A stretch of DNA of 64,000 nt from Paenibacillus sonchi (GTDB lineage Bacteria > Bacillota > Bacilli > Paenibacillales > Paenibacillaceae). Position numbers and translations under genes: made by a program. Shown one piece after another: positions 17,083 through 58,683 of this stretch. The first letter of the stretch is position 1. Each line of letters starts with the position of its first letter. The stretch is taken from contig NZ_CP068596.1 of assembly GCF_016772475.1 (NCBI RefSeq), positions 124,001-188,000 on the forward strand. Direction: 5' to 3'. The notes beneath the pieces were generated by a model, which worked only from the letters and a program-made list of their open reading frames with translations, did not search any database and was not told the origin of the DNA.

Positions 17083-17418
17083 TTGAATATCAATTTAGCT
17101 CGATTAAAAGAAGGTTTACCTGAACAGAAGGAATATCTTCTGACTTACACAACCGGATTGTTTCAGGTTATTGACTGTGCCCATAACTGCTACAACAGTG
17201 CAGACGTGGACTGGTCGAGTTTCACTTCAAATGACGTAAAGGTTGCTCTGGAAATGGCGATGGATTACTTGGATTATGATTCTATTTATCCTGAGGATTA
17301 TGATATTCCTCCGAATGAAGGAAACGCGATTCACGAATATCTTCTTAATGTAGAAATTATCTATCAGATCCGGAATGCTAAACCGGAGAAAATGTATCAA
17401 GACTTAACGTTCTTTTAG
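17083..17418 (+). CDS. first gene of the PRTRC-like operon, unknown (111 aa)
   Basis: TTG start behind AGGGAGGAGATGCAGAG. A small acidic protein with many Asp, Glu and Tyr and no Cys pair motif, membrane segment or signal. I do not recognise the family. It is 23 bases upstream of the next gene and opens a five-gene run ending with the ThiF-like gene, so it is probably an accessory part of that system. Confidence 0.6.
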   Translation: MNINLARLKEGLPEQKEYLLTYTTGLFQVIDCAHNCYNSADVDWSSFTSNDVKVALEMAMDYLDYDSIYPEDYDIPPNEGNAIHEYLLNVEIIYQIRNAKPEKMYQDLTFF

Positions 17419-17441
17419 TAGAGCTCGAAGGGGAGGAAACG

Positions 17442-18179
17442 ATGGAAACATCCTATTACTGTTTTGATCAGGTAAACCAAATGAGGGCAACCCTTGACAA
17501 CATGGCCATGATTAAGATGATTGCAGAGGCGGGAATTGATGTTATAACCGCTCCGATTGAATTCAGCTCTAATTATATTGGTGACCAGGATGGCATCTTT
17601 TTGATGTGTCTTGAGAGAGTATTTGGAACTGTAGAAAACGAGTGGAGCATTATTGATGGGGGATATGAGATCAGTAAGTATCGCGTTCCTTTTATTGAAC
17701 TCAAAAGCCTATATCCACTCTTTACGGGTGAAAAACGGATTGAGTATATCCGGAACCTAACGCTGTTGCTCGATGTCAAAGTTGATGACTATTACTTTTA
17801 CAGTGATGTAGCAATGGAAGGGGAACTTTCGAAAGACTGTTTTTTCATTAGGATTATGAACGGAGCAGGGGTCTTTTCCCCGTTGTTGGAAAAGATCTTA
17901 TTCATGCGAAACGAAGTAATCAAAACCATTCGTCTCCAAAAAATGCAACTCATAAATAATCTAAAGCGAATATTCATTGCTAAATTGGCAATTGAATCAG
18001 ATATTGAAGTCGATTTTAAATCGGATCAACCTTGGGAGGCCATTTATTCCGGAGTACGCGTTCAGCTCCAACGATCGGTTGGAACGGACAGTTTAGTGTA
18101 TGAGGAATTGATTATGCTATTACAGCAAGAGCGGAGAAAGAAGCTACAAGGCTCAACGAACTCAGAGGAGGCAGCTTAG
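17442..18179 (+). CDS. second gene of the PRTRC-like operon, unknown (245 aa)
   Basis: ATG with a GGGGAGGAAACG ribosome site. The protein is soluble, with a mixed N-terminal domain and a helical, basic C-terminal third (about 150-240). Family not recognised; it could be a divergent version of one of the poorly characterised PRTRC proteins. Its stop is one base before the ATG of the E2-like gene, which implies tight co-expression. Confidence 0.55.
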   Translation: METSYYCFDQVNQMRATLDNMAMIKMIAEAGIDVITAPIEFSSNYIGDQDGIFLMCLERVFGTVENEWSIIDGGYEISKYRVPFIELKSLYPLFTGEKRIEYIRNLTLLLDVKVDDYYFYSDVAMEGELSKDCFFIRIMNGAGVFSPLLEKILFMRNEVIKTIRLQKMQLINNLKRIFIAKLAIESDIEVDFKSDQPWEAIYSGVRVQLQRSVGTDSLVYEELIMLLQQERRKKLQGSTNSEEAA

Positions 18180-18180
18180 G

Positions 18181-18879
18181 ATGAATATAAACTGCGAAGA
18201 TAAAGGGATGAAAATGGTAGTCACTCTCCGCGACAATGCGCTTCCTGTAATCGAAGAGTATCACGATGGAGTCATCATTGGTAAAGGTACATATACGCAT
18301 GAAGCTTATGCTAACGCAGTGCTTCAATCGTTAGACTATGATGCTATTCGAACCCCGGTATTACCGAGAAATACGATTTATTATTCAGAGGGGCCAGCGA
18401 AAATAAATCTATTTTTTGAGATTCCAGCACATTCGCGCAGAGTATATTACCATGAGGCAGTCATTGAGGATGTTTCTTACCCGTCCTTGATATTTGGAGT
18501 GTCTCTGATTACACGAGATGAAAAGAAGGTTGTTCAGGGAGTGTTTATTGCTGCAATTGAAGAGCAATTTAGCATCAGCGAAGAGACAGAGATGTTTTGT
18601 TATCCATTTACCAATGTCTCAGCATCTTCGCACAAGGTGTGCTGGGGTACACAAAAGCTCCCTACTATCGAAAAAATGTCCCAATTATCTTCTATTCCGG
18701 ATCTCTTTTTTAATACTCCAAACTCGGACAGCTATTATTCCGAGTCAATTAATACAAGATTGACTTTTCGTGAACTGATGGAAGAGATAAAAGGGAAATC
18801 GTTTCCGGAGAAATATCTGAAGCCAATAGGTCAAAACTTAAAAGAATGGATACACGAAGTTACTCATTCGATCTATTAA
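18181..18879 (+). CDS. PRTRC protein B-like / prokaryotic E2 family D-like protein
   Basis: 232 residues, ATG directly after the previous stop, with GAGGAGG upstream. The region YPFTNVSASSHKVCWG (about 141-156) matches the pattern around the candidate catalytic Cys in PRTRC protein B, assigned to prokaryotic E2 family D: a P-F-x-N-V-S block followed by V-C-x-G. C154 would be the acceptor Cys and C140 is nearby. The N-terminal half is beta-rich, as expected. With E1-like and Ub/JAMM genes downstream, an E2-type ubiquitin-like transfer role is the best inference. Similarity is by motif and order, not by search. Confidence 0.6.
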   Translation: MNINCEDKGMKMVVTLRDNALPVIEEYHDGVIIGKGTYTHEAYANAVLQSLDYDAIRTPVLPRNTIYYSEGPAKINLFFEIPAHSRRVYYHEAVIEDVSYPSLIFGVSLITRDEKKVVQGVFIAAIEEQFSISEETEMFCYPFTNVSASSHKVCWGTQKLPTIEKMSQLSSIPDLFFNTPNSDSYYSESINTRLTFRELMEEIKGKSFPEKYLKPIGQNLKEWIHEVTHSIY

Positions 18880-18929
18880 ATGATGACCAGTATGTAGGGC
18901 ATTAAATATAACTATTGGAGGAATTGTTC

Positions 18930-20327
18930 ATGACAAATCAAAATCCTGGTGACTTATTCTCGCTCTTTATGCCGAAATCTACAAAGGGTTCTGAATCAGA
19001 TGATCATTCGACGGACCTGAAAAACTTGGGAGATCAGACCCAACAAGGAACGGAAAAATGTATTGGTAACAAGGGAGAGGATTCTAAGAGTCTTGACGGT
19101 CTTTCTGCAACAACTTCATCGGTTGGAGAGGGGAAGTCAGATATTAGTATTGAAGCTTCTGAACTGGAGCAAGGATCCGATTCTACACGATTTGACCATA
19201 CAGATGGAGAGGAACCAGGTGCTGGAAATGTAGTGACAACCAGAAATGAAAATGAGCCTCAATTATTCTCACTTTTTAGAGGTAGAAATGCTGCAAAGTC
19301 TTCTACTTCACAGAATGAGCGAAATGGTTTCAGCTTGATAGGGAGCGGGGATGATCCGGAATGTGAGTGCAAGGAAAGTTCTGATCCTGAGGAGCTAGCA
19401 GATGAAGAGCTTGACGTTTTCGCTGAAGAGGATGAGGTAAGTGAAGAAGATCTTAATAAGTTAGAGCTTGCCGGCAAGAGTAATGTTACGGCGCCAAAAA
19501 GTACCACGTCAAATAGCAAAGGTGAGAAGAAACCTGAGATTAACCGGGGGACATTTATAGCCTACGCTGGAAAAACGATATCAATTACAAAATTATTTAG
19601 TGATGAAGCGTTGCCAACCTTAGAGATGGATACCATACGGAAACGGTTAGAAAAATACTATCCGGAACTTTCCAAACAGCGGACAACTATGGATTGGGAC
19701 GATAAGAAGAATTTAATATGCCCGATCGTAACCAAAGGTAAAAAAGGTTCTTTTTTTTCTGAGGGAATAAAAGGATTCTTCTTTAAATCGAAAGATCTTT
19801 TTGAAAATATGGAATCTATAAATGTCCTAGCGGCAAAGGATGGCTATTATGAAGTTCGCGAGAATCCAATTGGTGTTTTTGTCACTAAAGTCGAAGAAGT
19901 AGAGGAGCTGGAAAACTGCTGCCAGGGCTTTAAATTGGCATTACCAAAGATTCCGAATCAGTTATTTTCTCAATTAATAACCTTTTTTGCGGATTACTCC
20001 ACTGAATTCGAGGTTGAGGTCTTGGGGGTTTTTTACTGGGACAGTTTAAAGCTTGAGTATGTTCTTGATATTCCTACTCAACGGGTTTCGAAGTCCAGAG
20101 TGTTTCCTCAATATAAACAATTTCCGGCACATATCTTTAAGGTCGCCGAGGTGCACTCTCATAACACGATGAGAGCTTATTTTAGCGACATCGATAATGA
20201 GGATGAGGCGGGAACGATGTTATATGGTGTCATCGGGAAGATACAAAAGGCCAAGGAGGTTACCTTTGAGATGGTTGTTCGTGCAGGAGCGGCTCGACAT
20301 TTTATCCCCTCATACCCGATATGTTGA
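18930..20327 (+). CDS. ubiquitin-like + JAMM (PRTRC C-A fusion) protein, 3' end frameshifted
   Basis: 465 residues from the ATG at 18930 (TTGGAGG upstream). Residues 1-200 are acidic, Ser/Glu-rich and probably disordered. Residues about 206-275 resemble the PRTRC C ubiquitin-like domain: a strand pair FIAYAGKTISI, a YYPELSK helix end and a KGKKG stretch. Residues about 285-465 hold a JAMM metallopeptidase motif: HSH, seven residues, then SDID (H409, H411, D422). The frame stops at 20327, but adding one C to the C4 run at 20306-20309 continues it as IPLIPDMLIEGF and on to 20431, right at the ribosome site of the ThiF gene. Role inferred: removal or maturation of a ubiquitin-like tag. Confidence 0.7.
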   Translation: MTNQNPGDLFSLFMPKSTKGSESDDHSTDLKNLGDQTQQGTEKCIGNKGEDSKSLDGLSATTSSVGEGKSDISIEASELEQGSDSTRFDHTDGEEPGAGNVVTTRNENEPQLFSLFRGRNAAKSSTSQNERNGFSLIGSGDDPECECKESSDPEELADEELDVFAEEDEVSEEDLNKLELAGKSNVTAPKSTTSNSKGEKKPEINRGTFIAYAGKTISITKLFSDEALPTLEMDTIRKRLEKYYPELSKQRTTMDWDDKKNLICPIVTKGKKGSFFSEGIKGFFFKSKDLFENMESINVLAAKDGYYEVRENPIGVFVTKVEEVEELENCCQGFKLALPKIPNQLFSQLITFFADYSTEFEVEVLGVFYWDSLKLEYVLDIPTQRVSKSRVFPQYKQFPAHIFKVAEVHSHNTMRAYFSDIDNEDEAGTMLYGVIGKIQKAKEVTFEMVVRAGAARHFIPSYPIC

Positions 20328-20438
20328 TTGAAGGATTTCAGCCAACTCAATCTGCGTATTCCATTTTGGTGGAAGATTACCCGTCAGATTGGCATGAACA
20401 GGTTCAGGTGAAAACACAAAGGATCGTTTAGGAGGAGA

Positions 20439-21290
20439 ATGATGATTCAATTATCCAATTTTCATCCAGAATACACTAAAATTATGTACTACATAGTTTT
20501 GATCGGAAGCGGTGGAACAGGCGGATACGCTGTACAACGCATAACGAAACAGATGAGTGCATTCAGTGATGTTCGCTCATACCTGATGCTTGCAGATCCG
20601 GATGTTATTGAAGAGCGTAACCTTTTACGACAACCCTTTATCACTCGTGATTTGGGGCTCAAAAAATCGGAGGTGTTATCCTCTAGGTATGGCTCTACTT
20701 ACGGATTGAAAATTGGTTCCTCTGCAGAGAAGTATATTGAGTCAGTAGAGGAGCTGGAGAGCTTATTCTCCCATACGAGTTATTTACACTCACAGAGGCA
20801 GTATATTCAGAAAGTATTGATAGGGGCAGTAGATAATGACTTTTCCCGGAAGATCATGAATGATTACTTTAATCATAGTGATGATCTTGTCTATATTGAT
20901 GCAGGGATTGAAGGTATTTACTTGCCTGAGAATGGAGATAAGCAGGAAGATGAATGGACGGATACAGAACTTGAAGATCACTTAGAAAGTGGTTATTCAG
21001 GTCAAGTGGTGGTTGGCCTAAAAAAGAAGGGGGAGGTTATTCTTCAGCCGATTCACGGAATCTACCCCATTGATTCGAATGATCTAATACCTCCATCCCA
21101 TAACTGTGGTTTGGAACCTTCTCAACCTCAACGAATGATTGCGAATGAAATGGCAGCTCTACAGATCAGCATATTAATGAATGAGTTGTTTGCCTCCAAT
21201 TCTATTCGCACACACGTTATTAATTTCAATGCTCAATTGGGAAATTCACGTGCGGAAGCAGCACCGGATGTCCCTCTCCCAATTAATTAA
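20439..21290 (+). CDS. ThiF/E1-like adenylyltransferase of the PRTRC-like operon
   Basis: 283 residues (ATG at 20439, or 20442 with better spacing to TAGGAGG). N-terminal nucleotide-binding loop VLIGSGGTGGYAVQRI, LADPDVIEERNLLRQPF (the acidic and Arg residues that contact ATP in E1/ThiF/MoeB proteins), AVDNDFSR, and a late Cys in SHNCGLEPSQPQRMIANEMAA that fits the active-site position of PRTRC ThiF proteins. Such enzymes adenylate the C terminus of a ubiquitin-like protein. Size matches PRTRC ThiF. It is the last gene of the operon, with a terminator 75 bases later. Confidence 0.8.
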   Translation: MMIQLSNFHPEYTKIMYYIVLIGSGGTGGYAVQRITKQMSAFSDVRSYLMLADPDVIEERNLLRQPFITRDLGLKKSEVLSSRYGSTYGLKIGSSAEKYIESVEELESLFSHTSYLHSQRQYIQKVLIGAVDNDFSRKIMNDYFNHSDDLVYIDAGIEGIYLPENGDKQEDEWTDTELEDHLESGYSGQVVVGLKKKGEVILQPIHGIYPIDSNDLIPPSHNCGLEPSQPQRMIANEMAALQISILMNELFASNSIRTHVINFNAQLGNSRAEAAPDVPLPIN

Positions 21291-37611: not shown

Positions 37612-39510
37612 GTGTGGTGCCCCGGCATGGGCGATAACTAGGCGGTGAAAGTCCGCTACAGGCTTGGCAGTAGGAACTGTTAGCCGAAGGCAAGGGTGTC
37701 GGTCGCGAGGCCGAATCTGAAGGAAGCCGGAGGCAAACCCTCGGTCTGACGAACAGAAATCACATATAAGGCATGATGAGACGGACGAGCTTGCCATGCA
37801 AAGTAAAGTCCAATACTGCCCGAATCTCATGATGTAGATGTGGCAGATAGATGAGGGGAAAGTTATCGCTCTTACCCGGGGAGGTCTCACAGACGTGCAA
37901 TAGGGAAAAAAAATCCGAAACACGGAGTAAAGCTTGCTGTGAGAAGTCAGCAGATGCCATAGTACCGGTTTTTTTTGGGGGAAGGGCTGAACAATCGTAA
38001 GTCTTGAGTACAGACTGAAAGGAGATCGGTGCGATGAAAGCAGAATACCGAAAGGGCTGCCGGCAAAGAGATAGCGTGGAACGCGAAGGGTATGCAGGAG
38101 CGCGGAGCATCGAAGCTCGGGAAGGGAAAGAAAGGGACGGTGCAAAGGGCCAGATGGAACGCATCCTGAGCAGAGAAAATCTGAACAGGGCGTATAAGCA
38201 GGTCAAACGTAATCATGGAGCGCCCGGAATCGACGGAATGACCGTCGAAGCGGCACTTCCGTGGCTGCGGGAGAACAGAGACGAACTCCTGCAAAGTATC
38301 CGGGAAGGAAAGTACAAGCCAAGCCCGGTGCGGCGCAAGGAAATCCCCAAACCGGATGGAAGCGGCGTGAGAAAGTTGGGCATCCCGACCGTAGTAGATC
38401 GGGTGATTCAGCAAGCGATCGCGCAAGAACTGCAACCGTTGTTCGAGCCGACCTTCTCGGAAGGAAGCTACGGCTACCGCCCAGGACGAAGCGCCCAGCA
38501 AGCCATACGAAAAGTAAAGGCCTATGCGGAACAGGGCTATGGACATGCGGTCGAGATCGACCTATCAAAATACTTTGACACGTTGAATCACGAGCTTCTT
38601 TTAAACTTGCTGCGCAAGCGAATCCAGGACAACCGCGTCATCGACCTGATCAAGAAGTACCTGAAAAGCGGAGTCATGGAGAATGGCGTACGCCGGGCAA
38701 CGGAGGAAGGATCGCCTCAGGGTGGACCGCTGTCACCGCTTCTAGCGAACATCTATCTGAACGAATTTGATCAGGAGATGGAAAGCCGGGATGTGACGAT
38801 CATCCGCTATGCGGATGACATTGTCGTACTCGCGAAAAGCAGACGAGCAGCGCTGCGACTGCTGGAATCCAGCCGGACGTATTTGGAGAAGAAGCTCAAG
38901 CTCCACATGAACACGCAGAAGAGCAAGGTGGTCAGCGTCGTGGCACAGAAACATTTCAAATTCCTTGGATTTGCGTTAGGAAAGAACGGAAACGGCGTCT
39001 ATATACGCGCGCACCGTCAATCTCTAGCCAAGGCAAAGAAGAAGCTGAAAGAACTCACGAGTCGAAAACAAGGCAGAAACGCCCGAGAGGTCATGGAGAA
39101 CGCAAAGGTCTATATTCTCGGATGGATCGGCTATTTCTACATAGCGGACATGAAACGAATTCTGCAAAGCTGGAATGAATGGCTGAGAAGACGAATGCGG
39201 ATGTACATCTGGAAACAGTGGAAGAAGCCTCGAACAAAGGTGCAAAACCTGCGAAAACTGGGGATACCGGAGTGGCAGGCTTACCAATGGGGGAACACAA
39301 GGCTGGGCTACTGGCGAATAGCCGGAAGCGCATTATTGAATCGCTCTGTAACAAACGAAAGGCTCGCACAGGCAGGGTATTATGACTTCCCTGCTCAGTA
39401 CGAGCGCTTGCGTCAAGTGCACTCAAGCGATTGAACCGCCGTGTACCGAACGGTATGCACGGTGGTGTGGAAGGTCGGCTACTCAACTAATGGGTAGCCT
39501 CCTATCCGAT
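37612..39510 (+). mobile_element. group II intron
   Basis: The 5' end GTGTGGTGCC fits the GUGYG consensus. A structured 400-base region precedes the maturase gene. After it, GAACCGCCGTGTACCGAACG followed by GTATGCACGGTGG looks like domain V, and GGCTACTCAACTAATGGGTAGCC like domain VI with its bulged A. The 3' boundary near 39510 is approximate. It sits directly after a terminator hairpin, the usual target of class C introns. Confidence 0.85.
38034..39434 (+). CDS. ltrA: group II intron reverse transcriptase/maturase
   Basis: 466 residues, ATG after GAAAGGAGATCGGTGCG. Reverse transcriptase blocks: HGAPGIDGMTVEA, KLGIPTVVDRVIQQA, YGYRPGRSAQQA, GSPQGGPLSPLLANIYL and the catalytic YADD in IRYADDIVVLA. 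A maturase (X) domain follows (GWIGYFYIADM, IPEWQAYQWGN). No HNH endonuclease is visible, as in many class C enzymes. The enzyme helps the intron splice and copies it into new DNA sites. The frame is intact. Confidence 0.95.
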   Translation: MKAEYRKGCRQRDSVEREGYAGARSIEAREGKERDGAKGQMERILSRENLNRAYKQVKRNHGAPGIDGMTVEAALPWLRENRDELLQSIREGKYKPSPVRRKEIPKPDGSGVRKLGIPTVVDRVIQQAIAQELQPLFEPTFSEGSYGYRPGRSAQQAIRKVKAYAEQGYGHAVEIDLSKYFDTLNHELLLNLLRKRIQDNRVIDLIKKYLKSGVMENGVRRATEEGSPQGGPLSPLLANIYLNEFDQEMESRDVTIIRYADDIVVLAKSRRAALRLLESSRTYLEKKLKLHMNTQKSKVVSVVAQKHFKFLGFALGKNGNGVYIRAHRQSLAKAKKKLKELTSRKQGRNAREVMENAKVYILGWIGYFYIADMKRILQSWNEWLRRRMRMYIWKQWKKPRTKVQNLRKLGIPEWQAYQWGNTRLGYWRIAGSALLNRSVTNERLAQAGYYDFPAQYERLRQVHSSD

Positions 39511-44239: not shown

Positions 44240-46231
44240 TCAAGCAGTCATCTGTATCCCATTTTCTTCAACGAACCTCTGCAGGGCTGAAAAATCCTCG
44301 GTTACATTTTTAAACGGCAAGGCATCTAACACTGTGTCACGATAATCCCTGTTAGCTGCAGTGCAAAGACGCGAGTCGAGAATGCTTAGTACACCTAAGT
44401 CACTTTCACTCCGAATCAGACGCCCTGTACCCTGCCTTAATCGAATGAGCATGTCTGGCAGAAAAATTTCCTTTTGTGGATCCTTGGATGTTGACGCTTT
44501 ATACTCGTACACAGGATCAGCTGGGACAGGGAAGGGTAACCGAAAAATGATAACCTGAGATAAGTCAGGCCCTTCTATATTAACACCTTCCCAAAAGACG
44601 CCAGTCCCGAGCAGTACCCCTTTGTTTGCTCGAAATTCCTCAATCACTTCATCCTGGGATGACCCTTCTTTTTGAACATGCAGTGACCAGGAGAGTTGTT
44701 CATTGCTTAGTTTTTCAAAGATGCATTTCATATCTTCCTTCGCAGAGAAGAGGACGAGCGTTCGACCCTGGGTAAGATCGCAAAGCTTGATCAGTTCTTT
44801 ATAAGCAGCTTCGAGATATGCCTCCTTATTCTCATGATTGTAGTAAGGAATACAGTCAGCGATGTATAGCATTGCGTGATTGTCATAATCAAAAGGTGAG
44901 ACCTGGCGGTCCATGTATTCCCCTATATAACCGAGAGTTTCGGTCATATAGGCGTACTGTTCATCCAACTTGTCTCCGCCTTGGCACAACGTCGCGGATG
45001 TTAAGACGACAGGAGTAGTGCCATTAAAGAGGGAGTACCGAAGAAGTTGACTAATCTCTTTGGGACAGATACTTATAGTAGCCACACGTTTGGAATTACT
45101 CGCCCAGATGATGTAGTTTTCCTCCACTCCGGCCAGTATATCGAATAGGTCGATCAATTCATTTATTTCCTCAATTGCATTGTCCACTTCCCGATCTTCC
45201 CGGGTAGTAATAATGGACAGGCCTATGTTAGTATCCCTTAGATACTGGGAGATCCGGTCATATGAAATTTTTTTCATCTCTGAAACTTTGATTCGATCAT
45301 TATCCTGCTTGGCCATGCAACGAAGGTCCTTTTCTACCTGCTTAAAAACATAATCACAGCACTCTTTCAGGAATTTAAAACGAGAGAAAAGGCTACGGTC
45401 TCCTGTATGCTTAATTAGAATCTGCAATGTGTTATCTAGGATGCGACAAGCGCTGCGCAGAGTGAATTCGACCGTTCTCGCATCTCTAACCTTCGATTCT
45501 AGGTTATGGGCTTCATCGATAACAATTAGAGCAGTGCGTTCTGTAATCAATCCTTTTGAACTTTCTTTTTTCTTAATAAGGTCTCGGATTAAAAGATCCT
45601 GGTTCACGATGATAAAATCGATATCTCCAACCCTAGCATTTATTTTGGTTCTCATATCATAGAAGGAGCAGATGTTTTTATAAAAACACCTTTCAAAAGT
45701 GCAGTTATTTACACAAACCTTTGACCATTCAGAATCATTTACTCCGCCCTGAATATCCGATCTTTCATGAAATTCCATGTCCATGATTCCTTGTATAATC
45801 GTAGAGAGAGTGGACTCCGTTTTATCTTTGGGATCAAAAAGCTCGGTAGCTCTGTGACGGCATGCATATTGTCCCATGCCTTTACCTACAACGGAGCGGA
45901 TCTTTACGAAGCCCAAACGGTTAGCAATTCTCCTCAAATCTTTGTGTATTTGTTCAGAAAGTTGTATAGAAGATGTCGCGATAATGATAGGTTGATTCAC
46001 CATGAAGTTAATGTAAAGGCTGGGAATGAGATAACCATAGGACTTGCCAATGCCGACACCAGCCTCGATCATGGCGTTTTCACCATTCAAGTATGCGTAA
46101 GCAATGTCCAAGGACATATCTTGCTGGCCTATACGATCTTTGAGTCCATAACTTTTGTAATTATTAAAAATTCTAAATATTGCATCAATAAGAGGCTTTT
46201 CCATCCCTTTCATTTTTTCCCGCTTCCGCAT
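44240..46231 (-). CDS. DinG/XPD-like superfamily 2 helicase
   Basis: 663 residues. Walker A EAGVGIGKS (57-64), DEAH box (239-242), and Cys at 124, 173, 177, 182 and 188 in the position of the Fe-S cluster of DinG/XPD helicases. The helicase C-terminal motifs VLLGTGVFWEGVNIEGPDL and RLRQGTGRLIRSESDLG are intact. The family unwinds DNA, R-loops or forks in the 5'-3' direction. The exonuclease domain of Bacillus-type DinG is absent. A second protein of the same type is encoded at 56710-58683. It stands alone, upstream of an IS630 remnant on the same strand. Confidence 0.85.
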   Translation of the reverse strand: MRKREKMKGMEKPLIDAIFRIFNNYKSYGLKDRIGQQDMSLDIAYAYLNGENAMIEAGVGIGKSYGYLIPSLYINFMVNQPIIIATSSIQLSEQIHKDLRRIANRLGFVKIRSVVGKGMGQYACRHRATELFDPKDKTESTLSTIIQGIMDMEFHERSDIQGGVNDSEWSKVCVNNCTFERCFYKNICSFYDMRTKINARVGDIDFIIVNQDLLIRDLIKKKESSKGLITERTALIVIDEAHNLESKVRDARTVEFTLRSACRILDNTLQILIKHTGDRSLFSRFKFLKECCDYVFKQVEKDLRCMAKQDNDRIKVSEMKKISYDRISQYLRDTNIGLSIITTREDREVDNAIEEINELIDLFDILAGVEENYIIWASNSKRVATISICPKEISQLLRYSLFNGTTPVVLTSATLCQGGDKLDEQYAYMTETLGYIGEYMDRQVSPFDYDNHAMLYIADCIPYYNHENKEAYLEAAYKELIKLCDLTQGRTLVLFSAKEDMKCIFEKLSNEQLSWSLHVQKEGSSQDEVIEEFRANKGVLLGTGVFWEGVNIEGPDLSQVIIFRLPFPVPADPVYEYKASTSKDPQKEIFLPDMLIRLRQGTGRLIRSESDLGVLSILDSRLCTAANRDYRDTVLDALPFKNVTEDFSALQRFVEENGIQMTA

Positions 46232-56709: not shown

Positions 56710-58683
56710 TTAACACGGGAGAATATCAACAATGGCTTCAAGTTTTCTGGAATATTTGCATTTCGGAAGATTACGAATGATTCGCCCGCCATAACGTTTG
56801 CTATAAATCCGGCTATCTAAAATAATGACAGCTCCTTGGCATTGCATAGAGCGGTTGAGCCGGCCAAATCCCTGTTTCAATTTGACGATCATTTTGGGAA
56901 ACATAAAATCAAAGAAGCTGCTTCGATTGGCTTTTTGAAGGATCGCCATTTGAGCTTGCGTTAGTGGTTCATCCGGCTGCGGGTAAGGTAGTTTTACAAT
57001 CACAACGGTAGTAAGCGCATCACCGGCCACATCCACCCCGGTCCAAAAGCTTGTGCAGCCAAGAACGATGGTTCTCGGATTTGCCTTCAGCTGCTCAATG
57101 ATCTTTTCTCGATCACAACCGGGGAATTGAACAAGTAAATGTATTGACCGCTCGCGGCAGTATATTTCAAGCCTCCTGGCCACCTGGTTCATCATTTCAA
57201 AACTTGTAAATAAGACAAGCGTGCGTCCCCCTGTGTACATCAGAACTTCCTTTAGTTTGTTGGGGACGTAGGAGGTGAACTCCGGACTGTTTGGCTCAGG
57301 TGCATCGTCGGGGCAAATGATCATCGTTTTTTCCTCATAGTTGAAGGGGCTATCAACTACGATTGATCCGTACTCCTTAACGCCCATTCTGCCGGAAAAG
57401 TAGTCGAAGGTTCTTCCCTCCTTTGAGGTCGTGGACATCGTGGCACTTGCCAAGATCACCGGCACTGCACTGAACAAATGCTTGCTTAAAATGACTTTAG
57501 GATAGAGGGGAGCGGCATGGAGAACAACGTCTCCTTTCCCCTTTTGGGTAGCCCAGTACGCCCAAGAATCTCTTTCATGCGAACTGATAAAGTCAAGATC
57601 ATCGTTTCCTTCAAAGATTTTATCCATTAGATCGGAAACCTTTTTCATGTTGAGGCTCTTGATTTTTTCAATGAAGCTCGTGAGCGTACTGCAGACATGG
57701 CTCATTTCAATTTTGGAATCTAACAGTTTAAATGCGGTAGAGTTTCCTTCTTCGTCCCTCATTTCTCGTCCGACCTGATCATAGACTTCTGCGAGATCAC
57801 TTTCAAAGGTTTGGCGGTACTGTGCGAGGGTGAGTTGATTGCCATGATCCAAATCTAAATATCCAGCTCTTGTAAACAAATTCTCAAAAAGATTTTCGAA
57901 GCGATGAAGGTCAACTTTTTTTTCAAATACCTTGCAGCAAACATCCTCAATTTCATGAGCCTCGTCAAATATGACGGCATCATACTGCGGAAGAGATCCA
58001 TTACCCGTTTTCATGCGAATCTTGAGATCATTAAAGAAATAGGCGAAGTTTGTAACAATGATGTGAGAGGAGTACATTTTTTCTTTTAAATCTTCCAATT
58101 TGCAATCCCTCGGTTTTACTACGCTTGGGCAAAATGAAGCACTGATCTTGCTCCATAAGTTGTCGTCAATATCAAACCCCATTCCCGTCCGATCTCCGAT
58201 ATGTTCCCGATTGACTATGGAATGAATTTTTCGAATGGTTTTAGCTTCAGGGTCATTACTCTTCAGCTTCTCTTGCCAAAGGGCATCAAGCTTATGATGG
58301 CAAACATAATGGTCCTTTCCTTTAACCAGTTGATACTTCAACTGCATCTGTTCCATCAACAAAATCTTAGCGACTCGCGGAAGCTCGATATTGACGATCT
58401 GTGTCATCAGTGGAATCGTGTGAGTACAAACAATAACCGTTTTCTTATTAGCGACAGCCCAGCGAGCTGCAGGAACCAGATAGCCTAAAGATTTACCGGT
58501 TCCTGTGCCGGCTTCACAAATTAAATGCTGCCCTTGTTCAAGCGCCTCCCCCACTTTTCTGGAGATTGAGATCTGGGGGTTACGCGGGGTATAGCCGGTG
58601 ACTAACTTAGACAAATGGCCCGCTGTTCCAAAAGCGCGATCAATAAATGCTTCCAACGTTATCCCCTGCCTCATTTCTATCAT
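56710..58683 (-). CDS. DinG/XPD-like superfamily 2 helicase (second copy)
   Basis: 657 residues. Walker A EAGTGTGKS (57-65), DEAH (240-243), and helicase motifs IVLGCTSFWTGVDVAGDAL and KLKQGFGRLNRSMQC. Cys at 128, 185 and 194 lie in the Fe-S region; I see only three there, so a cluster ligand may be missing or supplied elsewhere. No exonuclease domain. The start codon lies in the left arm of a 16-base palindrome without a ribosome site, so the mRNA may be leaderless or the start later. It is only distantly similar to the helicase at 44240. Confidence 0.85.
   Translation of the reverse strand: MIEMRQGITLEAFIDRAFGTAGHLSKLVTGYTPRNPQISISRKVGEALEQGQHLICEAGTGTGKSLGYLVPAARWAVANKKTVIVCTHTIPLMTQIVNIELPRVAKILLMEQMQLKYQLVKGKDHYVCHHKLDALWQEKLKSNDPEAKTIRKIHSIVNREHIGDRTGMGFDIDDNLWSKISASFCPSVVKPRDCKLEDLKEKMYSSHIIVTNFAYFFNDLKIRMKTGNGSLPQYDAVIFDEAHEIEDVCCKVFEKKVDLHRFENLFENLFTRAGYLDLDHGNQLTLAQYRQTFESDLAEVYDQVGREMRDEEGNSTAFKLLDSKIEMSHVCSTLTSFIEKIKSLNMKKVSDLMDKIFEGNDDLDFISSHERDSWAYWATQKGKGDVVLHAAPLYPKVILSKHLFSAVPVILASATMSTTSKEGRTFDYFSGRMGVKEYGSIVVDSPFNYEEKTMIICPDDAPEPNSPEFTSYVPNKLKEVLMYTGGRTLVLFTSFEMMNQVARRLEIYCRERSIHLLVQFPGCDREKIIEQLKANPRTIVLGCTSFWTGVDVAGDALTTVVIVKLPYPQPDEPLTQAQMAILQKANRSSFFDFMFPKMIVKLKQGFGRLNRSMQCQGAVIILDSRIYSKRYGGRIIRNLPKCKYSRKLEAIVDILPC

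Follow-up and report, generated by a model that had tools for sequence, protein, structure and literature searches.

A 64,000-nucleotide stretch of Paenibacillus sonchi DNA (the window; positions 124001-188000 of contig C2, NZ_CP068596.1) carries five consecutive genes on the forward strand at 17083-21290 which form one operon: g1, g2, an E2 gene (g3), a gene in which a ubiquitin-like (UBL) domain is fused to a JAB metalloprotease (g4), and a ThiF-type E1 gene (g5). Judged by homology, E1, E2, JAB and UBL are all present with conserved active sites. We consider it probable that this is a plasmid-borne UBL-conjugation operon of the PRTRC or Iyer type 6d kind, and that g4 encodes a tag precursor which is most likely cut by the JAB domain after Gly273. 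A sequence-only reading of this DNA had pointed out a UBL region, a JAMM motif, an E2 block and GSGGTGG with a late Cys; on re-inspection all of these motifs are real, and UBL and JAMM do lie in one protein. The ThiF gene g5 is found just beyond the coordinates given in that reading. The features of the operon are the following.

17083..17418, forward strand: g1, 111 aa, first gene of the operon, conserved in Bacillales plasmids; its C-terminus is ..FF/FI in most
17442..18179, forward strand: g2, 245 aa, directly 5' of the E2 gene, a position like that of PRTRC_F
18181..18879, forward strand: g3, E2-like enzyme, relative of Prok-E2_D and PRTRC_B (profile match)
18640-18642, forward strand: Cys154 of g3, invariant in 24/24 aligned relatives
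18930..20327, forward strand: g4, UBL-JAB fusion, 465 aa from the ATG at 18930, or 470 aa if the start is the TTG at 18915
18951..18968, forward strand: DLFSLF near the N-terminus of g4, the window version of a conserved short motif (QxxLF-like in many relatives), without the Gln
18969..19526, forward strand: acidic tail of g4 between the N-terminal motif and the UBL, weakly conserved
19527..19748, forward strand: ubiquitin-like domain of g4, residues 200-273
19743..19748, forward strand: Lys272-Gly273 of g4, predicted mature C-terminus and JAMM cut site
19749..20324, forward strand: JAB part of g4, a linker region (low model confidence) and the JAB/MPN+ protease core
20154..20195, forward strand: JAMM motif HSH-x7-SDID of g4 (sequence and conserved alignment columns)
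20315..20431, forward strand: region with homology to the C-terminal end of relatives (..IEG..YPxxWxxRV..), in another reading frame than g4
20439..21290, forward strand: g5, E1-like (ThiF) enzyme (profile match)
21105-21107, forward strand: Cys223 of g5, invariant in 20/20 aligned relatives

The precursor would thus consist of a short N-terminal motif, a flexible acidic tail, the UBL, Lys-Gly (KG) and the JAB metalloprotease, in this order. Most likely, the JAB domain would cut after Gly273, in cis or in trans, after which the E1 (g5) would activate the freed glycine and the E2 (g3) would pass the tag to lysines of target proteins. The JAB protein set free by the cut may later take tags off again. 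We infer the cut and its position from comparative evidence, and conjugation and tag removal from the family and operon type alone. JAB processing of UBLs at a glycine was predicted in 2006 in the sections of Iyer et al. that were available (PMC1779556), and the available text on the archaeal JAMM enzyme CsRpn11 reports that it cuts a ubiquitin precursor exactly after Gly-Gly (PMC6043591).

Searching a set of 5.8 billion proteins with g4 gave 40 matches at E <= 0.001, the window's own included, and the named ones are nearly all from Paenibacillaceae. Matches were also found in 35 plasmid records, mostly of Bacillota, and in 9/295 genomes of the family and 16/398 of the class, with the window genome counted in both. 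Genome contigs gave no match when searched with the single protein and 32 loci with an alignment as query. The architecture of 78 related loci was then scanned with local profiles: 37 have UBL and JAB in one frame, four encode the same UBL type separately, 25 have a classical separate UBL, and 12 gave no UBL match. The 37 fused loci represent 34 distinct proteins, as L008/L056, L015/L074 (one record) and L079/L081 share their last 150 residues. The fusion had been called new as a feature of this single locus, but the Bacillales relatives found commonly have it; these were collected with the fusion protein as query, a choice that may favour the fused form. Nine of the 12 loci without a UBL match are of a Clostridia type, and these JAB proteins probably hold a divergent fused UBL, because KKKG or KSKG is found 6-13 residues before the JAB match in proteins of 450-488 residues.

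The end of the UBL is highly regular in these relatives. KG ends 69/69 distinct cores of the Bacillales type (UBL_A) and 27/29 cores of the classical type (UBL_B), the remaining two being cut short in the alignment, with GKG right after; the hidden Markov model (HMM) of the UBL was built from KG-ending segments, which biases where the matches end and not which residues are found there. In classical PRTRC as in the four unfused Bacillales loci, free UBLs run to KG or no more than five residues beyond it. They stop exactly at KG in L005, L014, L045, L043, L044, L047, L087, L088, L092, L093 and L112, and have a few residues more in L012 (..KGAL), L017 (..KGVK), L109 (..KGTT) and L111 (..KGAHAQI). 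The unfused Bacillales-type UBLs (n=4) end at KG or two residues after, and in L005, L012 and L014 the JAB gene is the next gene after the UBL. In a tree of E1 proteins (65 rows), these four unfused loci fall inside the fused clade, with three label changes even on starred branches alone. Because of this nesting, a fused precursor gene has probably been split repeatedly, each time at or just past KG. The tree is unrooted and the branch of L045 is weakly supported (85/74), so we infer fission over re-fusion rather than observe it.

L045, a Bacillus halotolerans plasmid (NZ_CP114067.1), has E1, E2 and a free UBL ending in KG, with E1 first in the gene order, and neither the fusion profile nor PF14464 found a JAB on the whole 203,589-bp record. 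As its UBL is already free, JAB seems unnecessary where no cut has to be made. Recurrent splitting at KG, after which JAB could be lost, would be expected if the tag matures at KG and JAB is what exposes this end. The earlier suggestion that a fused protein matures its own tag is therefore plausible, given an invariant KG at the junction and unfused relatives that end there. Alternatively, the fusion might never be cut, in which case the UBL would regulate or target the JAB protease and the conjugated tag would be some other cell protein. Unprocessed fused UBL domains occur in some eukaryotic deubiquitinases, and 37 of the 41 loci with the Bacillales UBL type keep both parts fused. However, none of the 37 fused loci has a second UBL open reading frame (ORF) within the fetched flanks, and an uncut fusion would not account for an invariant KG at the junction, for four unfused relatives stopping at or within two residues of it, or for classical PRTRC relatives using the same domain as a free protein. 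We regard an uncut fusion as unlikely.

Apart from the bias of the UBL HMM and the unrooted tree, several observations weigh against the reading as a conjugation operon with a self-maturing precursor. The window UBL matches neither PF14454 nor TIGR03738, and its similarity to PRTRC_C-type UBLs is only moderate (hhalign probability 62%, E 8e-5, 24 columns). With no JAB found on its plasmid, L045 is also an argument that JAB is not required for tag removal in every case, or that the host does it. The downstream His of 6d E2s is absent from the window E2 and from several other Paenibacillus E2s. Finally, the g4 frame shifts near codon 463: about 35 residues of the relatives' C-terminus are lost, and the conserved tail runs to 20431 in the other frame. 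Because this conserved stretch is in another reading frame, g4 ends about 35 aa short, and the window copy may be shortened or impaired, or a base call may be wrong. Such a frame change relative to relatives could also mean decay of this copy, in which the natural end of the UBL-JAB gene is gone and the operon here no longer works. Against this, the other four reading frames are unbroken, the JAMM motif, KG and the active sites of E1 and E2 are preserved, and what is missing comes after the JAMM motif. We consider decay rather unlikely.

The claim of a UBL domain in g4 holds for the structure model, which is closest to ubiquitins (with modest Z) and places KG near the ubiquitin C-terminus, and does not hold for the PF14454 profile. 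Foldseek with the UBL model on its own gave no significant match. Among the relatives, an Alicyclobacillus protein scores 20.1 bits against PF14454 (cut-off 25), a B. velezensis tandem UBL passes with 48.5 bits, and PRTRC_C matches 1/46 fusion proteins, under its cut-off. Tandem UBL proteins of this kind, polyubiquitin-like and with each copy ending in KG, were found at L016:2192-2929 (four copies), L042:5016-5357 (two) and L090 (at least two), beside separate E2, JAB and E1 genes; hosts include B. velezensis (four copies) and Cytobacillus (two). Other loci have an additional domain of some 75-115 aa after the KG of the UBL (L046:3076-3498, L108:2349-2786, L110:2431-2847), and the same layout is found in L091, L094, L097-L101, L103, L104 and L106, viral contigs among them. 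A protein similar to this extra domain is separately encoded in Oscillatoria (L017) and Pseudanabaena (L109).

As the sequence-only reading had it, g3 belongs with E2 family D (PF14460, 44.3 bits, gathering cut-off 25) and has the active-site Cys154, and g5 is a ThiF/E1 protein in which G23, G25 and G28 (GxGxxG) are invariant together with Cys223 in the aligned relatives. g4 has the Glu...HxH-x7-SxxD pattern and MPN fold of JAMM / MPN+ proteases: HSH-x7-SDID was confirmed, its residues are invariant or nearly so in the fusion alignment, and the structure model shows the JAB fold. This model resembles AMSH and bacterial and archaeal Ubl proteases, including the bacterial Ubl-deubiquitinase 8tyx, which we take to be a Bil-system structure. 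Sequence search found no solved-structure relative of the fusion, with two chance-level matches. A region ahead of the JAB core exists and is modelled at a pLDDT of about 40, and the fusion alignment has a conserved Arg and Trp, whose match to the Arg and Trp conserved in the N-terminal alpha+beta domain of 6d JAB would be tentative. UBL, ThiF-like E1 and JAB might instead serve sulfur transfer, for thiolation or cofactor chemistry as in ThiS/MoaD, and genes of the PAPS reductase family do lie 3' of the operon in L003, L004, L020 and L112. This is highly improbable, as a dedicated E2 with its invariant Cys is found in 74/78 loci (the four without are contigs of 3.0-6.9 kb), E1, found in 77/78, has its own conserved Cys223, and JAB-linked E1s are argued to act by thioester transfer in the available part of Iyer et al. 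(PMC1779556).

The operon corresponds to type 6d in the scheme of Iyer et al. 2006 and is related to PRTRC as a divergent sister. It resembles PRTRC (NCBIfam TIGR03734-03738 etc.) in its homologues of E2 (B), JAB (A), UBL (C) and E1 (ThiF), in the B-A-ThiF order, in residing on large plasmids, where many PRTRC-type operons occur, and in a UBL ending in or near KG. It differs in that the window UBL is fused to JAB, while the PRTRC UBL is a separate upstream gene, and in that the window contig yielded no ParB and the operon no homologue of E or F; proteobacterial PRTRC plasmids have the gene order ParB-E-C-F-B-A-ThiF. Scores are far below the curated cut-offs (PRTRC_B 56.1/131.45, PRTRC_A 36.9/101.8, PRTRC_ThiF 49.8/144.75 bits), and NCBIfam gave the window proteins no match to PRTRC C, E or F. 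PRTRC_A matches 43/46 members of the fusion alignment. An operon with E1, E2, UBL and JAB homologues together is therefore correctly called PRTRC-like, as had been proposed, and not PRTRC. Type 6d combines a UBL that ends in a conserved Gly with JAB, E1-like and E2-like proteins and one extra unknown protein (PMC1779556, in part); the four named members are all found here, with the Gly at the end of the UBL inside the fusion and not at the protein end. In the accessible sections of the same source, type 6d is already listed for B. cereus and B. thuringiensis, its UBL appears as a small protein on its own with no UBL-JAB fusion mentioned, and its E2 has an absolutely conserved His that the window E2 lacks (PMC1779556).

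Other systems share single traits with the operon. The phage TAPI/TAPK proteins also join UBL to JAB, with one E. coli prophage TAPI-JAB fusion in Table 1 of Iyer et al., but they belong to lambda-type tail clusters in a tail assembly context, and the table row has no E1 or E2 (PMC1779556, available part). In Caldiarchaeum, a JAMM protease (CsRpn11) matures a ubiquitin precursor (CsUb) after its C-terminal glycine as well, whereas these are separate, archaeal proteins according to the text available (PMC6043591). The Bil operon BilABCD (PMC11354881, in part) and CBASS Cap2/Cap3 differ in protein families and operon order.

The two front genes are, as had been noted, of no known family: g1 has no Pfam or NCBIfam match, and g2 matches no family in either above cut-off. 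Homologue searches with g2 returned only g2 itself and one relative. Profile-profile comparison, with few sequences in the profiles, showed no similarity of g1 to PRTRC_E or of g2 to PRTRC_F, so these identities were rejected and position alone ties the two genes to PRTRC_E and PRTRC_F.

Contig C2 is 256,223 bp long and one of three contigs of the 7.78-Mb genome. It encodes a RepA/TrfA-like initiator (PF10134 E 2e-7, PF07042 E 2e-5) and a sliding clamp of its own (DnaN), and it shares one helicase and one hydrolase gene, at 63-66% identity, with P. rhizovicinus and T. composti plasmids. The operon had been placed in an island; because the 256-kb contig is separate and encodes both an initiator and a clamp, a chromosomal island was rejected in favour of a plasmid-like replicon. 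An overlap test of the contig ends for circularity was negative, so the word plasmid rests on size and gene content. The absence of a ParB-like gene was borne out: PRTRC ParB (TIGR03734) was not found on C2, and its matches on contig C1 were all under cut-off. The window also has two Helicase_C_2 (Pfam) proteins, which we presume to be DinG-like, at 44240-46231 and 56710-58683 on the reverse strand. The latter is 66% identical to the helicase 5' of the operon in related plasmids and lies 35 kb away here. A reverse transcriptase ORF of the group II intron type is found at 38034-39434 on the forward strand, and such genes also lie in or near the operon in L002, L012, L013, L020, L057, L060, L069, L077, L079, L080, L081 and L086. 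In L057 the intron is inserted within the HSH codons of the JAMM motif, and in L013 in the tail just past the N-terminal motif.

We know of no experimental function for PRTRC-type operons, and none appeared in the literature searched. A role in defence has been shown for Bil and for CBASS Cap2/Cap3, and the operon might likewise act against phages or other plasmids. This would fit the resemblance of the JAB to 8tyx, weak matches of the E1 to PADLOC E1-E2 models (best E 5e-6), a CBASS-like pair (a DncV-like cyclase and a SAVED protein; L017:7607-10804) directly beside the PRTRC-like operon of an Oscillatoria plasmid, and the speculation in the available text of Iyer et al. on addiction or protection against invasive replicons (PMC1779556). 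However, the other four proteins had no PADLOC match at E <= 0.1, and many relatives have replication genes (dnaN, dnaX, delta', exonuclease) or helicase genes close by. We find defence improbable, and a defence reading from PADLOC was dropped, as it gave weak E1 matches only. PHROGs gave two weak matches of unknown function.

A different function is suggested by the tail of the tag, which is weakly conserved except for an LFxxF stretch at its extreme N-terminus. The bacterial clamp-binding consensus is QL[S/D]LF or QxxLF in the part of the source available (PMC12309361), and relatives of g4 have DQLNLF, NQLSLF, KQIDLF, EQLALF, KQFDLF or QQMDLF. It is possible, and we propose it tentatively, that the tags act at the plasmid replisome, with a clamp-binding motif on the tag tail in Bacillales or on an adjacent protein in cyanobacteria. 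More speculatively, the N-terminal motif would dock the tag on the DNA sliding clamp, so that tagging would occur at the plasmid clamp or targets would be recruited to it. Strict QxxLF within 40 residues of the start is found in 24/54 proteins (2000 shuffles: mean 0.4, max 4); at <50% identity, 7/16 have the strict and 11/16 a relaxed pattern ([QE]xx[LIM]F). Among 36 tails gathered irrespective of motif, near-duplicates included, five are strict (1000 shuffles: mean 0.15, max 3) and 21 relaxed (shuffle mean 1.6, max 9). Of 125 other proteins listed from the same loci, one had the motif near its start, and this proved to be a UBL listed under another name. The UBL of cyanobacterial operons has no tail, and the protein from the gene immediately upstream ends in QLTLF-GI, QLSLF, QISLF or QITLF in 4/5 loci and in QMALL in the fifth. 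Where the UBL is separate from JAB (7 plasmid and 21 viral-contig loci), terminal QxxLF occurs in 5/187 ORFs of the operon span vs 1/413 outside, the five being two cyanobacterial and three on viral contigs.

The motif also co-occurs with a plasmid clamp gene. Among 30 plasmids, dnaN is present in 20/22 with either motif form vs 0/8 without (Fisher p 8e-6), and with the N-terminal rule alone in 16/18 vs 2/7 of the first 25 plasmids (p 0.007); the rule is post hoc, the counts were hand-tallied and the records are related, so these p-values are descriptive. L018, counted as dnaN-positive, is under the family cut-off, and four Bacillota plasmids have no detectable dnaN. Strict QxxLF is missing from 30/54 discovery proteins and 31/36 validation tails, and the window tag itself has NPGDLF and DLFSLF without the Gln, though DnaN is present on its contig and the initiator there ends in EQLTLL. 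The nine Clostridia-type loci have no strict motif, with one (L067) fitting the relaxed pattern. Terminal QxxLF was found in none of three proteobacterial loci scanned, in none of the E and C proteins of two further ones, and at the C-terminus of the ORFs just upstream in 0/18 viral-contig loci with a separate UBL. The results from L018 onward, together with the 5/187 count above, weigh against the clamp idea, apart from the DnaN and the initiator end of the window contig. On contig C2 beyond the window, a 564-aa LPD1-domain protein (L030:10341-12032, reverse strand) has the N-terminus MMNEQLAFNLFDYF, which is like the UBL-JAB N-terminal motif.

The operon type dates from 2006, when JAB cutting at the UBL glycine was also predicted, as given in the available sections of Iyer et al. 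(PMC1779556). No description of a UBL-JAB fusion in this operon type, or of a clamp link, was found in the literature searched, which mostly comprised papers outside subscription and among which the later Burroughs and Aravind papers did not turn up. The fused form and its naturally unfused relatives define a testable cut site, for which the JAB-free relative is a natural control. From its sequence, the short motif on many related tags may mean that these systems work at the plasmid DNA-copying machinery. Terminal clamp-like motifs and co-occurring plasmid dnaN would then give a bacterial ubiquitin-like system its first concrete target, the plasmid replisome, and, if true, this would parallel in bacteria the action of ubiquitin and SUMO at PCNA.

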